In this document: positions 8,918-15,267 of the stretch, in pieces
Layout: each line of letters opens with the position of its first letter
How positions within the stretch are numbered: position 1 is the stretch's first letter
DNA from: a virus
Direction: 5' to 3' (one strand)
DNA: 28,393 bases
Virus record (IMG/VR): IMGVR_UViG_3300023199_000049
Location: 1-28,393 of that record
The notes under the pieces: model-generated
What the model saw: the letters and a program-made list of their open reading frames with translations, nothing else
Told to the model about the DNA's origin: nothing
Database searches by the model: none
Translations under genes and position numbers: made by a program

Positions 8918-9136
8918 ATGGGCAAGAAGATCGAAATCCTGTCTGAGACAGACAACTTCGTGCACGTTCGCTGGAGCCGGCACACGCTGAAATCGCCCGG
9001 CGATCTGCTTGAGGTCTGCGAAGCACTGTATGGCGCCGGCCTGCTCGCGCTGAACTATGCGTTCAGCCAGTCGGACGCGCACGGCGGTTTCGTGTGTTTG
9101 AGAACCGGTGGACCAAGAACAGACAAAGCTGCTTGA
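8918..9136 (+). CDS. Hypothetical protein before the terminase, 72 aa
   Basis: A 72-aa protein with a strong Shine-Dalgarno (AGGGAGG, 8907-8913) before ATG 8918. It overlaps the large terminase start by 29 nt. The sequence MGKKIEILSETDNFVHVRWSRHTLKSPGDLLEVCEALYGAGLLALNYAFSQ predicts two strands and one or two helices. There is no helix-turn-helix of the usual small-terminase kind, and the length is well below most small terminases. Position directly ahead of the large subunit is where a small terminase would lie, so a divergent or reduced version cannot be excluded, but I do not claim it. Confidence 0.5.
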   Translation: MGKKIEILSETDNFVHVRWSRHTLKSPGDLLEVCEALYGAGLLALNYAFSQSDAHGGFVCLRTGGPRTDKAA

Positions 9137-10610
9137 GCAGCTTGTCAGGGCCGCGCGTTATTCGCAGTTCCTGCGCTACCGTCCGCTCGGCCATCCCGAC
9201 ACGCTGCCCGGCGGGCGGCTGTGGAAACAGAACGGGTGGCACTGGTGGTCAGCCAAGCCATGGCAGCTCGATTTCCACAGTGCCGGCTCCTTCGCCAAGG
9301 AACGCGCCTCCATCTCGGCCAACGGGGTGGGCAAGAGCTATTCCGTGGCGTGGGAGTGCGCCGCGCACGTGCTTGGGGACTACCCCTCCTGGTATCAGGG
9401 GTGGCGTTTCCCTGGACCCAACCACTGGTGGATCGGCGCCATCGACGCGGACCAGCAGCGCATCGGGATCCAACGCATCCTGCTCGGCGCCGATCTGGAT
9501 CAAAACCTGGGTACGGGTTTCATTCCTCGCGAGCGCATACATGGCAAGGTGCGCACCCGCCAGGCCGGCATATCGGACATTGCCGACCGGGTAACGGTGC
9601 GCCACGCTTGCGGCGGGTACAGCACGGTCACCTTCAAAACCTACAGTCAAGGGTGGCGCGCATGGCAGGCCGGCGCCCCGGACGGGATCGTACTCGACGA
9701 GGAGCCGGACGAGAACGACGCGCACCAGCGCGACATCTTCGTCGAGTGCCAGACGCGAATTTTCCGTTCATCGGGGATTTTGCTGCTTGGCATGACGCCG
9801 CTGCTCGGAGAAACCGAGATCACGCGCCACTTCATGCAGCCCAAGGCGCCCGGGATCTATTGCGTGACGGCGTCATGGGACGATGCCCCACATCTGAAGG
9901 AGGAGGACAAGGAGCGCCTGAAGCTCAGCTATCCGCAGCATCAGATCGAGGCACGCACGCTTGGCCTTGCGATGCTCGGCACCGGAAGGATCTTCAACGT
10001 GGCAGAAGACGAAATCACCGAATGGCAATTCCCGATCCCCGTGCATTGGCCGCGCATCGCCGGAATCGATTTCGGCCTTGACGAGGATCACCCCACGTCG
10101 GTGGTGTGGCTCGCCCACGACCGGGAAAACGACCGCGTCTATATCTACGATTGCTATAAAAAAACAGGTAAGGAGTCGCTATACCACGCCGAAGCGATCA
10201 AAGCACGCGGCGCGTGGATCCCGATGGCATGGCCGCACGACGGTGCGAATCGCGAGAAGGTCGGCGGCATCGTCCTCGCGGACAGCTACAGGCGCCACGG
10301 AGTCAACATGCTCCCACTGTCTGCGCGATACGATCGCGACAAGGGCGGAGCACAGCCCACGGAGCCCTGGATCAACGAGATGACAGAGAGAATGAACACA
10401 GATCGGCTCAAGGTGTTCAACCAGTGCAACGAGTGGTTCACCGAGTTTCGCAGCTACCACCGCGACCGGCGCGGCGACATCGTGCGCGTACGCAACGATC
10501 TGATGGACGCGACCCGCTACGCGCTGATCATGCTCAAATACGCCGACACCAAGGCCGCGCATACGGCATATTCGCGCAGCTCAGCGCGCGCCGCGAGGAT
10601 CTCTTTATGA
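9108..10610 (+). CDS. terL: Terminase large subunit (DNA packaging ATPase/nuclease)
   Basis: A 500-aa terminase large subunit that would pump DNA into the prohead and cut it. The N-terminal ATPase has a Walker A-like ISANGVGKSYSVA loop (ANGVGKS, residues 71-77), a strand WWIGAIDADQQR, and Walker B GIVLDEEPDEND (193-203) with the acidic pair. A coupling-type segment GILLLGMTPLLGETEI follows. The C-terminal RNase-H-like nuclease begins at WPRIAGIDFG (Asp321 as first metal ligand), with later acidic residues in GGIVLADSYR and RVRNDLMDATRYALIML. Length and domain order fit the family. GTG 9108 is the only suitable start, and it overlaps the gene before it. A recognisable small subunit is not seen next to it. 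The stop overlaps the next ATG (ATGA). Confidence 0.92.
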   Translation: MDQEQTKLLEQLVRAARYSQFLRYRPLGHPDTLPGGRLWKQNGWHWWSAKPWQLDFHSAGSFAKERASISANGVGKSYSVAWECAAHVLGDYPSWYQGWRFPGPNHWWIGAIDADQQRIGIQRILLGADLDQNLGTGFIPRERIHGKVRTRQAGISDIADRVTVRHACGGYSTVTFKTYSQGWRAWQAGAPDGIVLDEEPDENDAHQRDIFVECQTRIFRSSGILLLGMTPLLGETEITRHFMQPKAPGIYCVTASWDDAPHLKEEDKERLKLSYPQHQIEARTLGLAMLGTGRIFNVAEDEITEWQFPIPVHWPRIAGIDFGLDEDHPTSVVWLAHDRENDRVYIYDCYKKTGKESLYHAEAIKARGAWIPMAWPHDGANREKVGGIVLADSYRRHGVNMLPLSARYDRDKGGAQPTEPWINEMTERMNTDRLKVFNQCNEWFTEFRSYHRDRRGDIVRVRNDLMDATRYALIMLKYADTKAAHTAYSRSSARAARISL

Positions 10611-10987
10611 GGCGAGTCATATCCATTGCAGACCGGGTCGGTCCGGCGCTGGAAGCACACTTCCACCGACATGGTGTGCGCCCTGCGCGCAGGTTCACCT
10701 ATCGCGGCAAGGATGTCTACCTCGCCGAGGGCGGCCCGCATTTCGACGCGCACCCGGCCGTCATCGATCCCACCGACGCATGGATGCTCGCGGGCTACTA
10801 CGTGTCGGTTTGGGGCGTGCAAAACGGACTCGCGGTGCTCGGCAGGCCAATGTACTTCAAGCTCGACCATGATCCGAATCGCTCGGCCCAAGCTAACCGG
10901 GCAGGCCGCCTGGAAGCCGCCGAGGTCGACGCAAAGGAGCACATCGACTCCTTCTATCTCGCCGGGCATTTCAAGGTGGTGGTGTGA
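10607..10987 (+). CDS. Hypothetical protein between terminase and portal, 126 aa
   Basis: A 126-aa protein I do not recognise, starting in an ATGA overlap with the terminase stop. A helical and basic N-terminus (MRRVISIADRVGPALEAHFHRHGVRPARR) is followed by a beta-rich centre (FTYRGKDVYLAEGGPHFDAHPAVIDPTDAWMLAGYYVSVWGVQNGLAVLGRPMYFKLDHD). A helical end follows (AGRLEAAEVDAKEHIDSFYLAGHFKVVV). No catalytic or metal site is evident. Genes squeezed between terminase and portal commonly act in head assembly or packaging, so a small head-related protein is the most economical inference. Confidence 0.5.
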   Translation: MRRVISIADRVGPALEAHFHRHGVRPARRFTYRGKDVYLAEGGPHFDAHPAVIDPTDAWMLAGYYVSVWGVQNGLAVLGRPMYFKLDHDPNRSAQANRAGRLEAAEVDAKEHIDSFYLAGHFKVVV

Positions 10988-12777
10988 TGGCAAAGCGAAG
11001 ATTCGACCGGCGCGACTTCAAGGTCATCGCTGAGTACGTCTACGAGGAGCGCGTACGCCGAAAGGGCAAGCGCAAGGATCTGGAGCAGATCTGGAAGGAG
11101 ATCGATCGACAAATCGACATGCGACCCGATCGGTCTCACAAGCTGTCTGGCAACGGCCTACCGGATCCGCGCAAGGCCTGGCTGCCGGAAGTCGAGTTAC
11201 CACTGCAGGCCGAGGCTCTGGAGACCCTGGTGGCCGACACGCGCGGGATGGAGTTCCCGGACTCAGGCCCCTGGTACGAGGCACGCGCCGCGCTGACGGA
11301 TGAATACCTCGAGCGCGCGGATCTGTCATCCGTGGTCACGGGCGATCAGAACGAAGTCCCTTCCCTGATTACCCAGGACAACGCCGACAAGCTCGTGGCT
11401 GGCGTGGTTGAACACTGGCATTCGCAATACGACTTTCGCGGCAACATCGATTTGATCAACGCCGAGGCACTCAGTTACGGGGTCGGCGTCGGCCGGGCGC
11501 GCGTCGTGCACCGCCGCATCCTGGCCGATACCGCCAACGGACTCAAGGCGCAGGACGTGCGCATCCCGGCGCTGGTGCCCGTGTCGATCAAGGACGCCTA
11601 TCTGGATGACCGGCGCCACATCACCCTGCACGAGGGCTTCGAAACGGCGCCCATGAACATCCTGTCGCGCAGGATGATGTTCTCCGACTTCAGGGAAATG
11701 GTCTCGCGAGGATCCGCCGGATCCGGCTGGATTAGCAGCGAAATCAAAGACCTGAAGCCAGACGACAAGGGAATGGTCGAGCTGCTCGAAGCCGAGGGCG
11801 ATTTTATCGTGCCGCGCAAGACGACCGGGGACATCCAGCTTCCGGGCGCGAACGTATGGGTGGCGTGCGGATCCAACGCCGCCGCCCTGGTGCGCCTGCA
11901 CTTCCCGGAGCATCCGCGCACAGTCATCGAATTCCCGTACCACCGCGAGCGCTTGGGCACGCCATACGCCACCAGTCCGCTGATCAAGGGCTATCCGCTC
12001 CAACGCGCTGCGGTCGAGTCACTTATCTACCTGATCCAGGCGGGGGCACTGCGCTCCCTGCCGCCGGTCGGCTATGACCGCTCGGACACCCATTTCGCCG
12101 CTCAGGGCGGCCCGATAATGGAGCCCGGCGCTCAGTGGGCCACGCTCGGGGACATCAAAACGCACCTAGTCGGCGATCCGCAGGCCCTGTTGGCCATGTA
12201 CCAGCACTTCCTGCTGCAGTACGCCGATGCGGTCGGGATCCACCGGGCGCGCCTGGGCGCCCAAACGGTCAGCCATACGACGGCGTTCGCCAAGAACGCC
12301 GAGCTCCAACGCGGGGCCGTGCGCACCGTGGACTACGTGCGCGCATCCCTGCAGGGGCCCCTGATGCAGTGGCTGCAGCTGGCCTGGGCGATGGGCCTGG
12401 AGGCCATGGGCCGGCGTGAGCTGACCTTGTACATCGAGCCCTACCGCGGCTACGTGACGCTCACCCGCGAGCTGCTCCCGGACCAGGTGAGTTTCGCGGC
12501 CCATGGCTCCGGCGGGCCGGCCGAGGAACAGGCCAAGCGCGCCGAGCGCATGACGGCCCTGGCCGAGGCCATCCAGATCGACAACCTGCGCCTGGCACGC
12601 GGAGAACAGCCGCTGCTCAACCTGGAGGCCATGATCGAAGAGCGCCTGCGCCAAGGCGGGTGGGTGGACATCGATCCGTTCATCAACCGCGACACCGGAG
12701 CCGCCCCGGACATCGGCGGCGACGTGGGCGCGCTGGCTGCGCTGCAGGCATCGGGGGCGATCGGCAATGTCGGCTAA
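10987..12777 (+). CDS. Portal protein (podovirus type)
   Basis: A 596-aa portal (head-tail connector) that would form the dodecameric ring at the packaging vertex. The basic N-terminus MAKRRFDRRDFKVIAEYVYEE is followed by WLPEVELPLQAEALETLVADTRGMEFP and NIDLINAEALSYGVGVGRARVVHR, the wing/stem pattern of podovirus portals. Next come YHRERLGTPYATSPLIKGYPLQRAAVESLIYLIQAGALRSLPPVGYD and the long helix DPQALLAMYQHFLLQYADAVGIHRARLGAQTVSHTTAFAKNAELQRGAVRTVDYV, which reads as the crown/stem helices. A charged C-terminus (EEQAKRAERMTALAEAIQ) follows. ATG 10987 overlaps the preceding stop by one base; a GTG one codon earlier is possible. Size and place between terminase and scaffold support the call. 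Confidence 0.85.
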   Translation: MAKRRFDRRDFKVIAEYVYEERVRRKGKRKDLEQIWKEIDRQIDMRPDRSHKLSGNGLPDPRKAWLPEVELPLQAEALETLVADTRGMEFPDSGPWYEARAALTDEYLERADLSSVVTGDQNEVPSLITQDNADKLVAGVVEHWHSQYDFRGNIDLINAEALSYGVGVGRARVVHRRILADTANGLKAQDVRIPALVPVSIKDAYLDDRRHITLHEGFETAPMNILSRRMMFSDFREMVSRGSAGSGWISSEIKDLKPDDKGMVELLEAEGDFIVPRKTTGDIQLPGANVWVACGSNAAALVRLHFPEHPRTVIEFPYHRERLGTPYATSPLIKGYPLQRAAVESLIYLIQAGALRSLPPVGYDRSDTHFAAQGGPIMEPGAQWATLGDIKTHLVGDPQALLAMYQHFLLQYADAVGIHRARLGAQTVSHTTAFAKNAELQRGAVRTVDYVRASLQGPLMQWLQLAWAMGLEAMGRRELTLYIEPYRGYVTLTRELLPDQVSFAAHGSGGPAEEQAKRAERMTALAEAIQIDNLRLARGEQPLLNLEAMIEERLRQGGWVDIDPFINRDTGAAPDIGGDVGALAALQASGAIGNVG

Positions 12778-13048
12778 TCCGTTCCTGACCGAGGCCGAGC
12801 AGGCCTTTCTGCGCGGGATGGCCTCCGACCCGCGCTGGTTCGCGATCCTGCGCAAGATCGCCGACTCCTGCCCGCCACCGCGCTACCGCCCGGGGGTGGA
12901 CGACCAGGCGCAGATCCATGCCTGGATCTATCGCTCGGGCGCCTTCACTCAGCTTGAGGGGGTGCTCAGCCTGCTGGCCGGACGGTCGGTGACGCTGGAG
13001 CACCAAGGCGTTGATTTGACAAGCGAGGAAACACATGGCAACATCTGA
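12767..13048 (+). CDS. Hypothetical protein between portal and scaffold, 93 aa
   Basis: A 93-aa protein overlapping the portal by 11 nt and the scaffold by 14 nt. It starts MSANPFLTEAEQAFLRGMASDPRWFAILRKIADSCPPPRYRPG, a helix pair, and continues with DDQAQIHAWIYRSGAFTQLEGVLSLLAGR. Small proteins of this type and place are common in podovirus head operons, and the helical build suits an assembly aid or minor head protein. No specific family function is known to me. The double overlap places its synthesis under the same ribosome flow as portal and scaffold. Confidence 0.55.
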   Translation: MSANPFLTEAEQAFLRGMASDPRWFAILRKIADSCPPPRYRPGVDDQAQIHAWIYRSGAFTQLEGVLSLLAGRSVTLEHQGVDLTSEETHGNI

Positions 13049-13652
13049 CATACCTGCCTCGACCGTGGCCGAGGAACCGAGTGGGGCGCCGCAGGCGACC
13101 CCCGAAGGAACCACCGGCGCACAGGCCGACGACCTGGATACGCTCCTGTCATCGATCGACAAGGAGTATGCCCAGGCTAGCGCTCCGAAACCGGCGGAAC
13201 CGCCCAAGCCAACCGAGGGCCAATCCGATCCGCGCTTCGACGAGCTCCAGCGCACCGTTCAGGCGATCGAACAGGAGCGCGTGGCCTCTGACATCGAGGC
13301 CGCCGTTCGCACTGTTCAGGAGCACTTGGGCGATGGGCTGCCCGTAAAGCTGCCCGACCGGGTGGTGCGCGGGATGCTAAATGATCTCGCCATGGAAAAT
13401 CGCGGGGTCATGGTCGCATTCCAGAACCGCCGCCAGGAACCGGGGACGTGGAAACGCATCCTTGCAGCGTCGGCGGCCCAACTGCGCAAAGAGTTCGGCG
13501 ATCCCGTGGATCAGCAATTGACCAGCGACAGGGCCGCGGCACAGGCCGCCGTACGCGGGGCTTCGAAAGCCAGTGCGACGGATGACGGCCAGCCGAATCT
13601 CGCAGCCATGTCGGATCAGGAGTTCCTGAAATGGAAGCGCGAACACGGTTGA
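13035..13652 (+). CDS. Capsid scaffolding protein
   Basis: A 205-aa predicted scaffold that directs capsid assembly and leaves the head before or during packaging. Residues 1-65 are acidic and disordered (Ala, Pro, Glu, Asp, Thr). Next comes a helical centre (DPRFDELQRTVQAIEQERVASDIEAAVRTVQEHLG), a positively biased segment (LPDRVVRGMLNDLAMENRGVMVAFQNRRQEPGTWKRILAASAAQLRKEF) and the end NLAAMSDQEFLKWKREHG. The SDQEFLKWKR-type tail is usual for scaffolds whose C-terminus binds the coat. Location directly before the major capsid gene strengthens the call. The TGA (13650-13652) lies five bases before the hairpin that covers the capsid start, suggesting translational coupling. No protease motif is seen. 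Confidence 0.78.
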   Translation: MATSDIPASTVAEEPSGAPQATPEGTTGAQADDLDTLLSSIDKEYAQASAPKPAEPPKPTEGQSDPRFDELQRTVQAIEQERVASDIEAAVRTVQEHLGDGLPVKLPDRVVRGMLNDLAMENRGVMVAFQNRRQEPGTWKRILAASAAQLRKEFGDPVDQQLTSDRAAAQAAVRGASKASATDDGQPNLAAMSDQEFLKWKREHG

Positions 13653-13656
13653 TTTA

Positions 13657-13704
13657 ATGGTCTTGTCGTCCGGCGCACGATGTGTGCCAGGAGGACAAGA
13701 CCAT
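13657..13704 (+). promoter_or_regulatory. Long hairpin sequestering the capsid SD and start codon
   Basis: The left arm 13657-13678 pairs with the right arm 13682-13704 around a GAT loop. Matches: ATGGTCTTGTC with GACAAGACCAT (11 pairs), one G-G mismatch, TCC with GGA, a bulged A at 13689, then GGC with GCC, one G-U and CAC with GTG. In all there are 21 pairs. The right arm contains the AGGAGG Shine-Dalgarno (13689-13694) and the first two bases of the capsid ATG (13703), so both are buried when the RNA is folded. The scaffold stop is five bases upstream, so a terminating ribosome would reach into the stem base. Control of capsid translation by scaffold translation, RNase III processing, or DNA-level palindrome function are alternatives. 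Confidence 0.75.
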
Positions 13705-14821
13705 GGCCCTGACTGTATCAGCAACTGACGTCGAAGTACCCAAGCCAGTCAACGTCGCGTATAACGAGACGCTGCTGCGCACCGCGCGCCCGCTGGCGGC
13801 GTATTACATCGGCGCCCAGCCGGGCGAGCTGATGCTGCATCGAGGCACCGCAACGATCGGTTGGCGGCGCTTCAACACGTCCGCGGACGACTCGAGCGCC
13901 ATCGCGCCGACCGTGACTCCGCTGTCGGAAGTCACCACGGCGGCCTATGGCATGGGGCGCACGCCCGCCACCGTGCACCGCACCGACACGAGCGCGACGG
14001 TCAGCAAATACGGTCAATTCTTCTACGTCAATGAGGAAGTGGACGTATTCAACTTCAACCACACCATGGACGGGATCGTGCAGACGCTGGCGATTTCCGC
14101 CGGCCGCAGCCTGAACTGGCTGCAGCGCAACGTGCTCGAGGACAACCTGACCCTGCACTACGCCGGGAACGTTGCTTCGGCGGGCGCGGTCACGGCCACG
14201 GTGTCGGCCGGGGATCTGAACTACGCGATCAACGTGATGACCCGCAACTACGTCAACACGTTCTCGCCGGTCTCGGCGGGGTCCCAGATCGTCGGTTCCA
14301 GCCCCCTGCTGCCATCGCTGTGGGGCCTGTGCCACCCGGACGTGGCACACGACATCGCCGGTCTGACCGGCTTCAAGTCGGCCGAGACCTATGCGAGCCA
14401 TACCGCCCTGGTGCCGGGCGAGTTCGGCTTCTACGGCCGGGCGGGTCTCGGTGTGCGATTCATCCAGACCCCCGAGGCGTCCATCGACGCCGGCGCGGGC
14501 GCCACGACCAGCTCGAACGACTTCCGTTCGACTTCGGGGAGCAACGATCTGTACACGATCGTGCTCCTTGGGCGCGATGCCCATGGGGCGGTCGGGCTGG
14601 GGCAACAGCTGCCGGATGGCAGCTTCGTCTCGGGCCGCGAGGGCAACCCGCCCGCCATCAAGATGATCGTCAAGGGGCGTAATACCGATCGCCCCTCGGG
14701 TCTGGACGACCCGTTCGACGAGATGATGAGCATGGCATGGTCGGCGTGGCACGCGGGCGCCATCCTCAATTCCAATTGGGGGCGCGGGCTCGTGGTCGCT
14801 GCGAGCAACCTCGCCAACTAA
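13703..14821 (+). CDS. Major capsid protein (N4-gp56-like family)
   Basis: A 372-aa major capsid protein. The ATG at 13703 is chosen for its ideal AGGAGG eight bases upstream; an in-frame GTG at 13682 would add seven residues and lies in the hairpin. The order of segments follows the N4-gp56 capsid group: YNETLLRTARPLAAYYIGAQPGELMLHRGTATIGWRRFNT, then IAPTVTPLSEVTTAAYGMGRTPATVHRTDTSATVSKYGQFFYVNEEVDVFNFN, then the spine helix VQTLAISAGRSLNWLQRNVLEDNL. Next are LNYAINVMTRNYVNTFSPV, a beta-rich core with LWGLCHPDVAHDI and GEFGFYGRAGLGVRFIQTPE, and the end MMSMAWSAWHAGAILNSNWGRGLVVAASN. It follows a scaffold and is flanked by a 5' hairpin and a 3' terminator, as expected for the most abundant product. 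Confidence 0.88.
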   Translation: MALTVSATDVEVPKPVNVAYNETLLRTARPLAAYYIGAQPGELMLHRGTATIGWRRFNTSADDSSAIAPTVTPLSEVTTAAYGMGRTPATVHRTDTSATVSKYGQFFYVNEEVDVFNFNHTMDGIVQTLAISAGRSLNWLQRNVLEDNLTLHYAGNVASAGAVTATVSAGDLNYAINVMTRNYVNTFSPVSAGSQIVGSSPLLPSLWGLCHPDVAHDIAGLTGFKSAETYASHTALVPGEFGFYGRAGLGVRFIQTPEASIDAGAGATTSSNDFRSTSGSNDLYTIVLLGRDAHGAVGLGQQLPDGSFVSGREGNPPAIKMIVKGRNTDRPSGLDDPFDEMMSMAWSAWHAGAILNSNWGRGLVVAASNLAN

Positions 14822-14845
14822 TCCGCATTCGCGGGAAGGACATTC

Positions 14846-14870
14846 AGGGGGCTTCGGCCCCCTTCTTTTT
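14846..14870 (+). terminator. Rho-independent terminator after the capsid gene
   Basis: A perfect 7-bp stem (AGGGGGC, 14846-14852, with GCCCCCT, 14857-14863) closed by a TTCG tetraloop is followed by TCTTTTT (14864-14870). This is a textbook intrinsic terminator 25 bases after the capsid stop. The next gene (14881) is in the same direction and shows no obvious promoter of its own, so partial read-through is expected. That would lower downstream tail gene expression relative to capsid. Confidence 0.9.
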
Positions 14871-14880
14871 GGGAGACGGT

Positions 14881-15267
14881 ATGCCGATCACTCGACAAAG
14901 TCCGGTCATGGACATGGACACCAACCAGCCCCTGAACATGGGGCCGAGGGCATCGCGCCTGTTGCTGCATCGCATGCTGCGCGCGCACGGTATCACCCAC
15001 GATGTCGCCGACACGCGCGACGCGCTGTTGGCCATCTGCCAGAGAAACAACGTCCAGGGGTTTCCGGCCGTTCCACGTGAAACGGCCCAGGCGAGCGCCA
15101 GAGCCACGGAGCCTGTTCCGGTTCCCGATGCGCAGCATTTCCCCCGCAACGTGGTGCATCTTCGCAAACTGTGTAAGGAGCGCGGGCTTAAATGGGAGCG
15201 CACCGATAAGCGCGATGACCTGGTCGCGCGGATCCAGGCGGACATTGTGGAAAAAGGCTATGGCTAA
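14881..15267 (+). CDS. Hypothetical protein with SAP-like C-terminal motif
   Basis: A 128-aa protein whose ATG 14881 has a GGGAG Shine-Dalgarno (14871-14875) right after the terminator tail. The N-terminal part has a helix pair (ASRLLLHRMLRAHGITHDVADTRDALLAICQRN) and a disordered Pro/Ala linker. Residues 91-121, NVVHLRKLCKERGLKWERTDKRDDLVARIQADI, form a SAP/HeH-like helix-extended-helix (LRKLCKERGLK...DKRDDLVARI), a fold that often binds DNA or protein. The first half may be a diverged copy of the same helical unit. Small SAP-like proteins after capsid genes are seen in several podoviruses; the role here, perhaps head completion, is uncertain. It overlaps the next gene by 8 nt. Confidence 0.55.
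   Translation: MPITRQSPVMDMDTNQPLNMGPRASRLLLHRMLRAHGITHDVADTRDALLAICQRNNVQGFPAVPRETAQASARATEPVPVPDAQHFPRNVVHLRKLCKERGLKWERTDKRDDLVARIQADIVEKGYG

Follow-up and report, generated by a model that had tools for sequence, protein, structure and literature searches.

The coat-protein operator of phage MS2 is a hairpin laid over a ribosome-binding site in the operon to which the coat gene belongs. Inhibitory hairpins at ribosome-binding sites are also found in T4, at genes e, soc, 49 and I-TevI (PMC3014915). Coupling of neighboring genes by RNA unfolding has been described for VII-IX of phage f1, where the structure is a blocking hairpin, for coat-lysis of MS2, and for rpmI-rplT of Escherichia coli (PMC12548453). 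Both hairpins that block a ribosome-binding site and coupling by unfolding are thus established in phages. Here we describe a hairpin at the start of the major capsid gene in a virus record of 28,393 bp, which was analyzed over its whole length and is referred to below as the window.

Gene Order and Hairpin Architecture

The window carries a terminase gene (9108-10610), a portal-like gene (10984-12777), a small ORF, a putative scaffold gene and the major capsid gene, in that order (Table 1). The capsid gene was assigned to the major head protein family PHROG 1357 (E 8e-33) and to Pfam Phage_capsid_4 (E 1.4e-6). Its start agrees with the starts of relatives, and an upstream in-frame GTG (13682) was rejected as a start codon because the relatives align from the ATG at 13703. 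The ORF upstream of it has no PHROG or Pfam match and is probably a scaffold gene, a label given by position. An ORF of 190-260 codons lies at the same position in most relatives, and a gene annotated "scaffolding protein" is found upstream of the capsid gene in a distant relative, Stenotrophomonas phage StenR_269.

Table 1. Features of the scaffold-capsid junction in the window
Feature	Position	Strand	Remarks
Putative scaffold gene	13035..13652	+	ORF encoding 205 aa; lies 3' of the portal-like gene and 5' of the capsid gene
Putative scaffold stop, TGA	13650..13652	+	Stem follows after 4 nt, capsid ATG after 50 nt
Hairpin 5' arm	13657..13678	+	Sequence and predicted fold
GAU loop	13679..13681	+	Predicted fold
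Hairpin 3' arm	13682..13704	+	Includes Shine-Dalgarno and start-codon AU
Capsid Shine-Dalgarno, AGGAGG	13689..13694	+	In the stem; first A bulged, next three bases (GGA) paired, then one G mismatched and the last G paired
Major capsid gene	13703..14821	+	372 aa; ATG 13703-13705
Terminator-like hairpin and T run	14846..14873	+	Just 3' of the capsid gene; 2 overlapping matches against 0.9 expected by chance

The preliminary description had placed between these two genes a stem of 21 pairs containing a mismatch, a bulge and a G-U pair, one of each, and enclosing the Shine-Dalgarno and the AT of the capsid ATG. Sequence and predicted fold agree on all of this, and only the distance from the scaffold stop to the stem had to be corrected, from five bases to four. 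The predicted fold consists of an outer helix of 11 pairs (13657-13667 with 13694-13704), the outermost two of which involve the A and U of the start codon, and of inner helices of three pairs (13669-13671/13690-13692) and seven pairs (13672-13678/13682-13688, including the G-U). The interruptions are a G13668.G13693 mismatch and the bulged A13689. Shine-Dalgarno and/or start codon held in a stable local helix, the mark of a sequestered ribosome-binding site, is what folding predicts for this locus.

Several other identities for the structure were considered and set aside. An intrinsic terminator at 13657-13704 was rejected on the grounds that no terminator was called and no T run is present, GGCCCTGACTG lying directly 3' of the stem. 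A frameshift or readthrough fusion to the capsid was rejected because the gap lengths among relatives occupy all three frames. The hairpin has no Rfam match at gathering score, and weak Rfam matches to microRNAs are those expected from any near-perfect hairpin. The sole foreign match of a DNA hairpin pattern search (L073) was attributed to chance, as it lies at the GGQD motif of a queC-like ORF, on the other strand.

Two intron-related elements were noted in relatives. A group I intron (L194:1751-1990; Rfam RF00028, 90 bits) splits the capsid gene of one relative just before the YIVNEE motif, and an annotated intron homing endonuclease gene (L250:624-1073) lies exactly between the scaffold and capsid genes of StenR_269. 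Contigs near-identical to the window differ from it at 14836 and 14865, beside and within the terminator-like hairpin.

Stability of the Capsid Start Site

Folding of the 161-nt context, a check suggested in the preliminary description, gave -63.2 kcal/mol against -48.3 +/- 4 for shuffled versions (z -3.7, 0/200). No other 50-nt stretch of the window's + strand folds as stably as the hairpin itself (-36.2 kcal/mol), and the best folds of eight whole-window shuffles (-30.6 to -35.5) were each weaker.

Among phage proteins, the major capsid protein usually ranks with the most heavily translated, and an open start site is expected; the capsid starts of N4, T7, and P22 are open, with costs of 3.3, 4.4, and 3.9 kcal/mol, respectively. 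Opening the capsid start site of the window is predicted to cost ~21-22 kcal/mol (22.2 in a set of 80 capsid starts, where it ranks at the top), with a z score of +7.15 against shuffled upstream sequence. The mean cost at 320 other gene starts of these phages is 7.1 kcal/mol. Repression in vivo is suggested by these computed energetics.

Conservation of the Pairing

Profile searches of viral contigs supplied the relatives, about 100 distinct capsids; the bacterial and archaeal genome collection held three relatives only. For 80 distinct capsid starts and, as controls from the same loci, 320 starts of other genes, the start codon was paired with an upstream arm at P > 0.9 in 27.5% and 7.5%, respectively (Fisher p 5e-6). 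On the capsid tree, 15 of the 23 rows of a sister clade exceed 0.9, and the six rows of the window's own clade all fall at 0.57-0.70. Taking these two clades together as near relatives, pairing between upstream segment and start region exceeds that of shuffled segments at p <= 0.05 in 51% of 35 sequences as opposed to 9% of 116 control starts, the figure for more distant capsids being 14%. The rise in opening energy across the near set is modest on average (mean z +0.55). Pairing is abolished when relatives are given each other's upstream segments (z -6.4, against -2.5 to +0.6 in six control sets); a first version of this test was possibly confounded by base composition, and it was repeated with controls from other genes.

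The pairing partner of the start codon lies 15-30 nt upstream in many relatives. A predicted helix including the AUG is present in 37 of 39 capsid starts that were inspected closely, all picked from the near relatives and with the window among them. Every position from -8 to -1 shows three to five pair types across these 39 starts, counts that derive from the minimum-energy fold of each sequence and are therefore biased towards pairing, so that the control-based tests carry the weight. A compensatory change from A-U to U-A, in the stem at position -1 and adjoining the start codon, distinguishes the close relatives L011 and L012, whose loops are identical. Both have a layout like that of the window, with the Shine-Dalgarno in the 3' arm beside a mismatch and the AU of the AUG outermost. 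One more two-sided change was found in a five-sequence subclade, several other pairs being broken in some of its members. The two contigs closest to the window (L001 and L002) are near-identical to it, have the hairpin unchanged and are thus uninformative.

Covariation in relatives had been proposed as a further check, and a lack of conserved pairing had been named as an outcome that would refute the proposal. Instead, pairing over the capsid start is kept despite extensive base-pair turnover; the structure is retained and the sequence is not. Comparison of the sequences thus indicates that the pairing is conserved by co-variation.

Variation among Relatives

The usual layout in the sister clade has the AUG held in the stem and the Shine-Dalgarno left in the loop, with mostly 6-14 pairs reaching into the start site; the window, whose stem has 21 pairs and encloses the Shine-Dalgarno, stands at an extreme. 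The distance from the upstream stop to the 5' arm is mostly 1-14 nt, and in four sequences (L011, L012, L013, and L184) the arm is partly or wholly inside the upstream gene. Counting near relatives with a start-site helix, 82% have a 5' arm that begins no more than 12 nt past the stop or within the upstream gene. The stop-to-start gap is not above that of other gene pairs in length (p 0.55).

Some relatives are without the helix. The cultivated distant relatives StenR_269, Rollin, Pascal, AD45-P4, and vB_Pun_Y3 have start-codon helix probabilities of 0.00-0.56, none of them strong, and the feature thus looks specific to the clade.

Two other arrangements were seen upstream of the capsid gene. 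L018 and L019 have a 14-pair stem in the 34 nt before the capsid ATG; its last base directly precedes the ATG, and the Shine-Dalgarno is buried in it. At an opening cost of ~18-20 kcal/mol these two are nearest in strength to the window. The subclade of L034, L040, and L245 has a conserved short hairpin (approximately ATTGGCG/CGCCAAT) that follows the upstream stop and precedes the Shine-Dalgarno, in place of one over the AUG.

Proposed Control of Capsid Translation

We think it very likely that the hairpin is under selection and controls capsid initiation. It would act as a cis-acting mRNA element that bars free 30S subunits from the capsid start, the capsid being made mainly by, or beside, ribosomes that have just finished the preceding gene (the putative scaffold). 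On reaching the upstream stop, such a ribosome would melt the lower stem and so free the start codon, and a forward movement of a few nucleotides would free the Shine-Dalgarno too. The 50-nt gap between stop and start provides space for the terminating ribosome and the initiating 30S subunit simultaneously. To the explanation as a whole, a selected translational-control hairpin opened by ribosomes arriving from the upstream, probably scaffold, gene, we assign a probability of roughly 0.5. The chances that coupling is the way in which the hairpin is opened appear to us to be even.

The footprint of a ribosome at a stop codon extends up to ~9-12 nt past it, which in the window corresponds to ~13661-13664. 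The upstream stop adjoins the stem, as expected of coupling by unfolding, and a ribosome covering these 9-12 nt would by computation lower the opening cost from ~21 to 13-10 kcal/mol; if a further 3-6 nt were covered (13667-13670), 5-2 kcal/mol would be left. In many relatives (e.g., L014, L127, L050, L018, and L044) the 5' arm lies beyond the ribosomal footprint, and the opening energy is not reduced by a ribosome waiting at the stop. The earlier proposal that the ribosome terminating on the scaffold gene opens the stem is therefore upheld in part: it is physically possible and would leave the site of the window half opened, but is predicted to bring relief in only some of the relatives. Coupling by unfolding is, on these calculations, feasible in the window, and a ribosome resting on the stop is predicted to be insufficient alone. 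In a synthetic library, structure just past the stop codon is reported to reduce coupling (PMC12548453).

A more far-reaching reading, which we regard as doubtful, is that a fast-evolving and continuously re-paired RNA switch in a podovirus-like clade sets the ratio or the order of scaffold and capsid, possibly with the scaffold or capsid protein as its ligand. If true, the switch on the capsid start would be a dedicated RNA-level control of head-assembly stoichiometry.

Alternative Explanations

The hairpin might silence only long read-through transcripts, with the capsid translated from a shorter RNA whose 5' end, set by initiation or by cleavage, falls inside the hairpin, so that the 5' arm is missing. 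T4 gene e offers a precedent with a 100-fold effect (PMC3014915), and a 5' end at 13668-13672 would bring the computed opening cost down to 5.5-2.3 kcal/mol. A terminator-like site 3' of the capsid gene and the promoter that T7 has between its scaffold and capsid genes are also consistent with such a transcript. However, no sigma-70-like promoter was found at 12700-15000, a result that applies to this promoter type only, and the stems and 5' arms vary in sequence among relatives, with the consequence that no common promoter motif is apparent by inspection. We consider this explanation unlikely.

By analogy with MS2, the scaffold or capsid protein could bind the hairpin as an operator and repress capsid translation once abundant. 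A structured start site on the gene for the shell is where such autoregulation would act, and the structure is kept as its sequence turns over. Nevertheless, the folds inspected have no common loop or bulge motif besides the Shine-Dalgarno, and stem length varies widely among relatives, which makes a protein operator quite unlikely.

It is distinctly improbable that the hairpin serves as an RNase III site, processing the operon mRNA and setting the stability of the capsid mRNA, as the preliminary description had offered as an alternative. With its 21 pairs and internal mismatch, the stem of the window could plausibly be an RNase III substrate, and the idea is applicable to this unusually long stem. 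It does not extend further: a stem of ~20 pairs is not conserved as such, relatives having mostly 6-14 pairs into the start site, which is short for RNase III, and cleavage cannot be the conserved role because most of their stems are short. A double cut near the middle of the stem would, moreover, remove or damage the Shine-Dalgarno.

That the pairing is incidental, a product of GC-rich sequence and a chance palindrome, is very improbable given the shuffle, other-gene, and swap controls and the compensatory change between L011 and L012, even though the ATGGC with which many relatives' capsid genes start favors any upstream GCCAT by itself and the helix is not universal.

Comparison with Known Systems

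A selected hairpin that controls capsid initiation is the reading we prefer, and by structure and co-variation the hairpin of the window fits a known kind, with a function that is predicted. In the open-access literature searched, we did not find a clade-conserved hairpin blocking the ribosome-binding site at a scaffold-capsid junction. That a clade keeps its capsid start codon in a re-paired hairpin points to RNA-level control of head assembly, and the old question of scaffold-to-capsid stoichiometry becomes testable by simple reporters.

The T4 hairpins resemble that of the window in having the Shine-Dalgarno and/or AUG in a local helix and in their predicted recurrence in related phages (PMC3014915). 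T4 gene e differs in that late transcripts without the 5' part of the structure relieve the block (PMC3014915), whereas the hairpin of the window lies between two structural genes, acts on the major capsid gene if our reading holds, and has no sigma-70-like promoter within 12700-15000. The f1 VII-IX, MS2 coat-lysis, and rpmI-rplT pairs share with the window a downstream ribosome-binding site buried in structure beside or under the upstream gene, and unfolding at rpmI-rplT takes place at +52 nt, close to the 50 nt of the window (PMC12548453). Coupling has been shown experimentally in these three systems and is inferred in the window, and in many of its relatives the footprint of a stop-bound ribosome would end short of the stem. 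The MS2 operator is likewise a hairpin over a ribosome-binding site in an operon with a coat gene, but no conserved protein-contact motif was seen in the folds inspected. Finally, N4, T7, and P22 have, like the window, a capsid gene just after the scaffold gene or its positional equivalent, the scaffold and coat genes of P22 overlapping by one base and T7 having an internal promoter; in contrast to the window, their capsid start sites are open.
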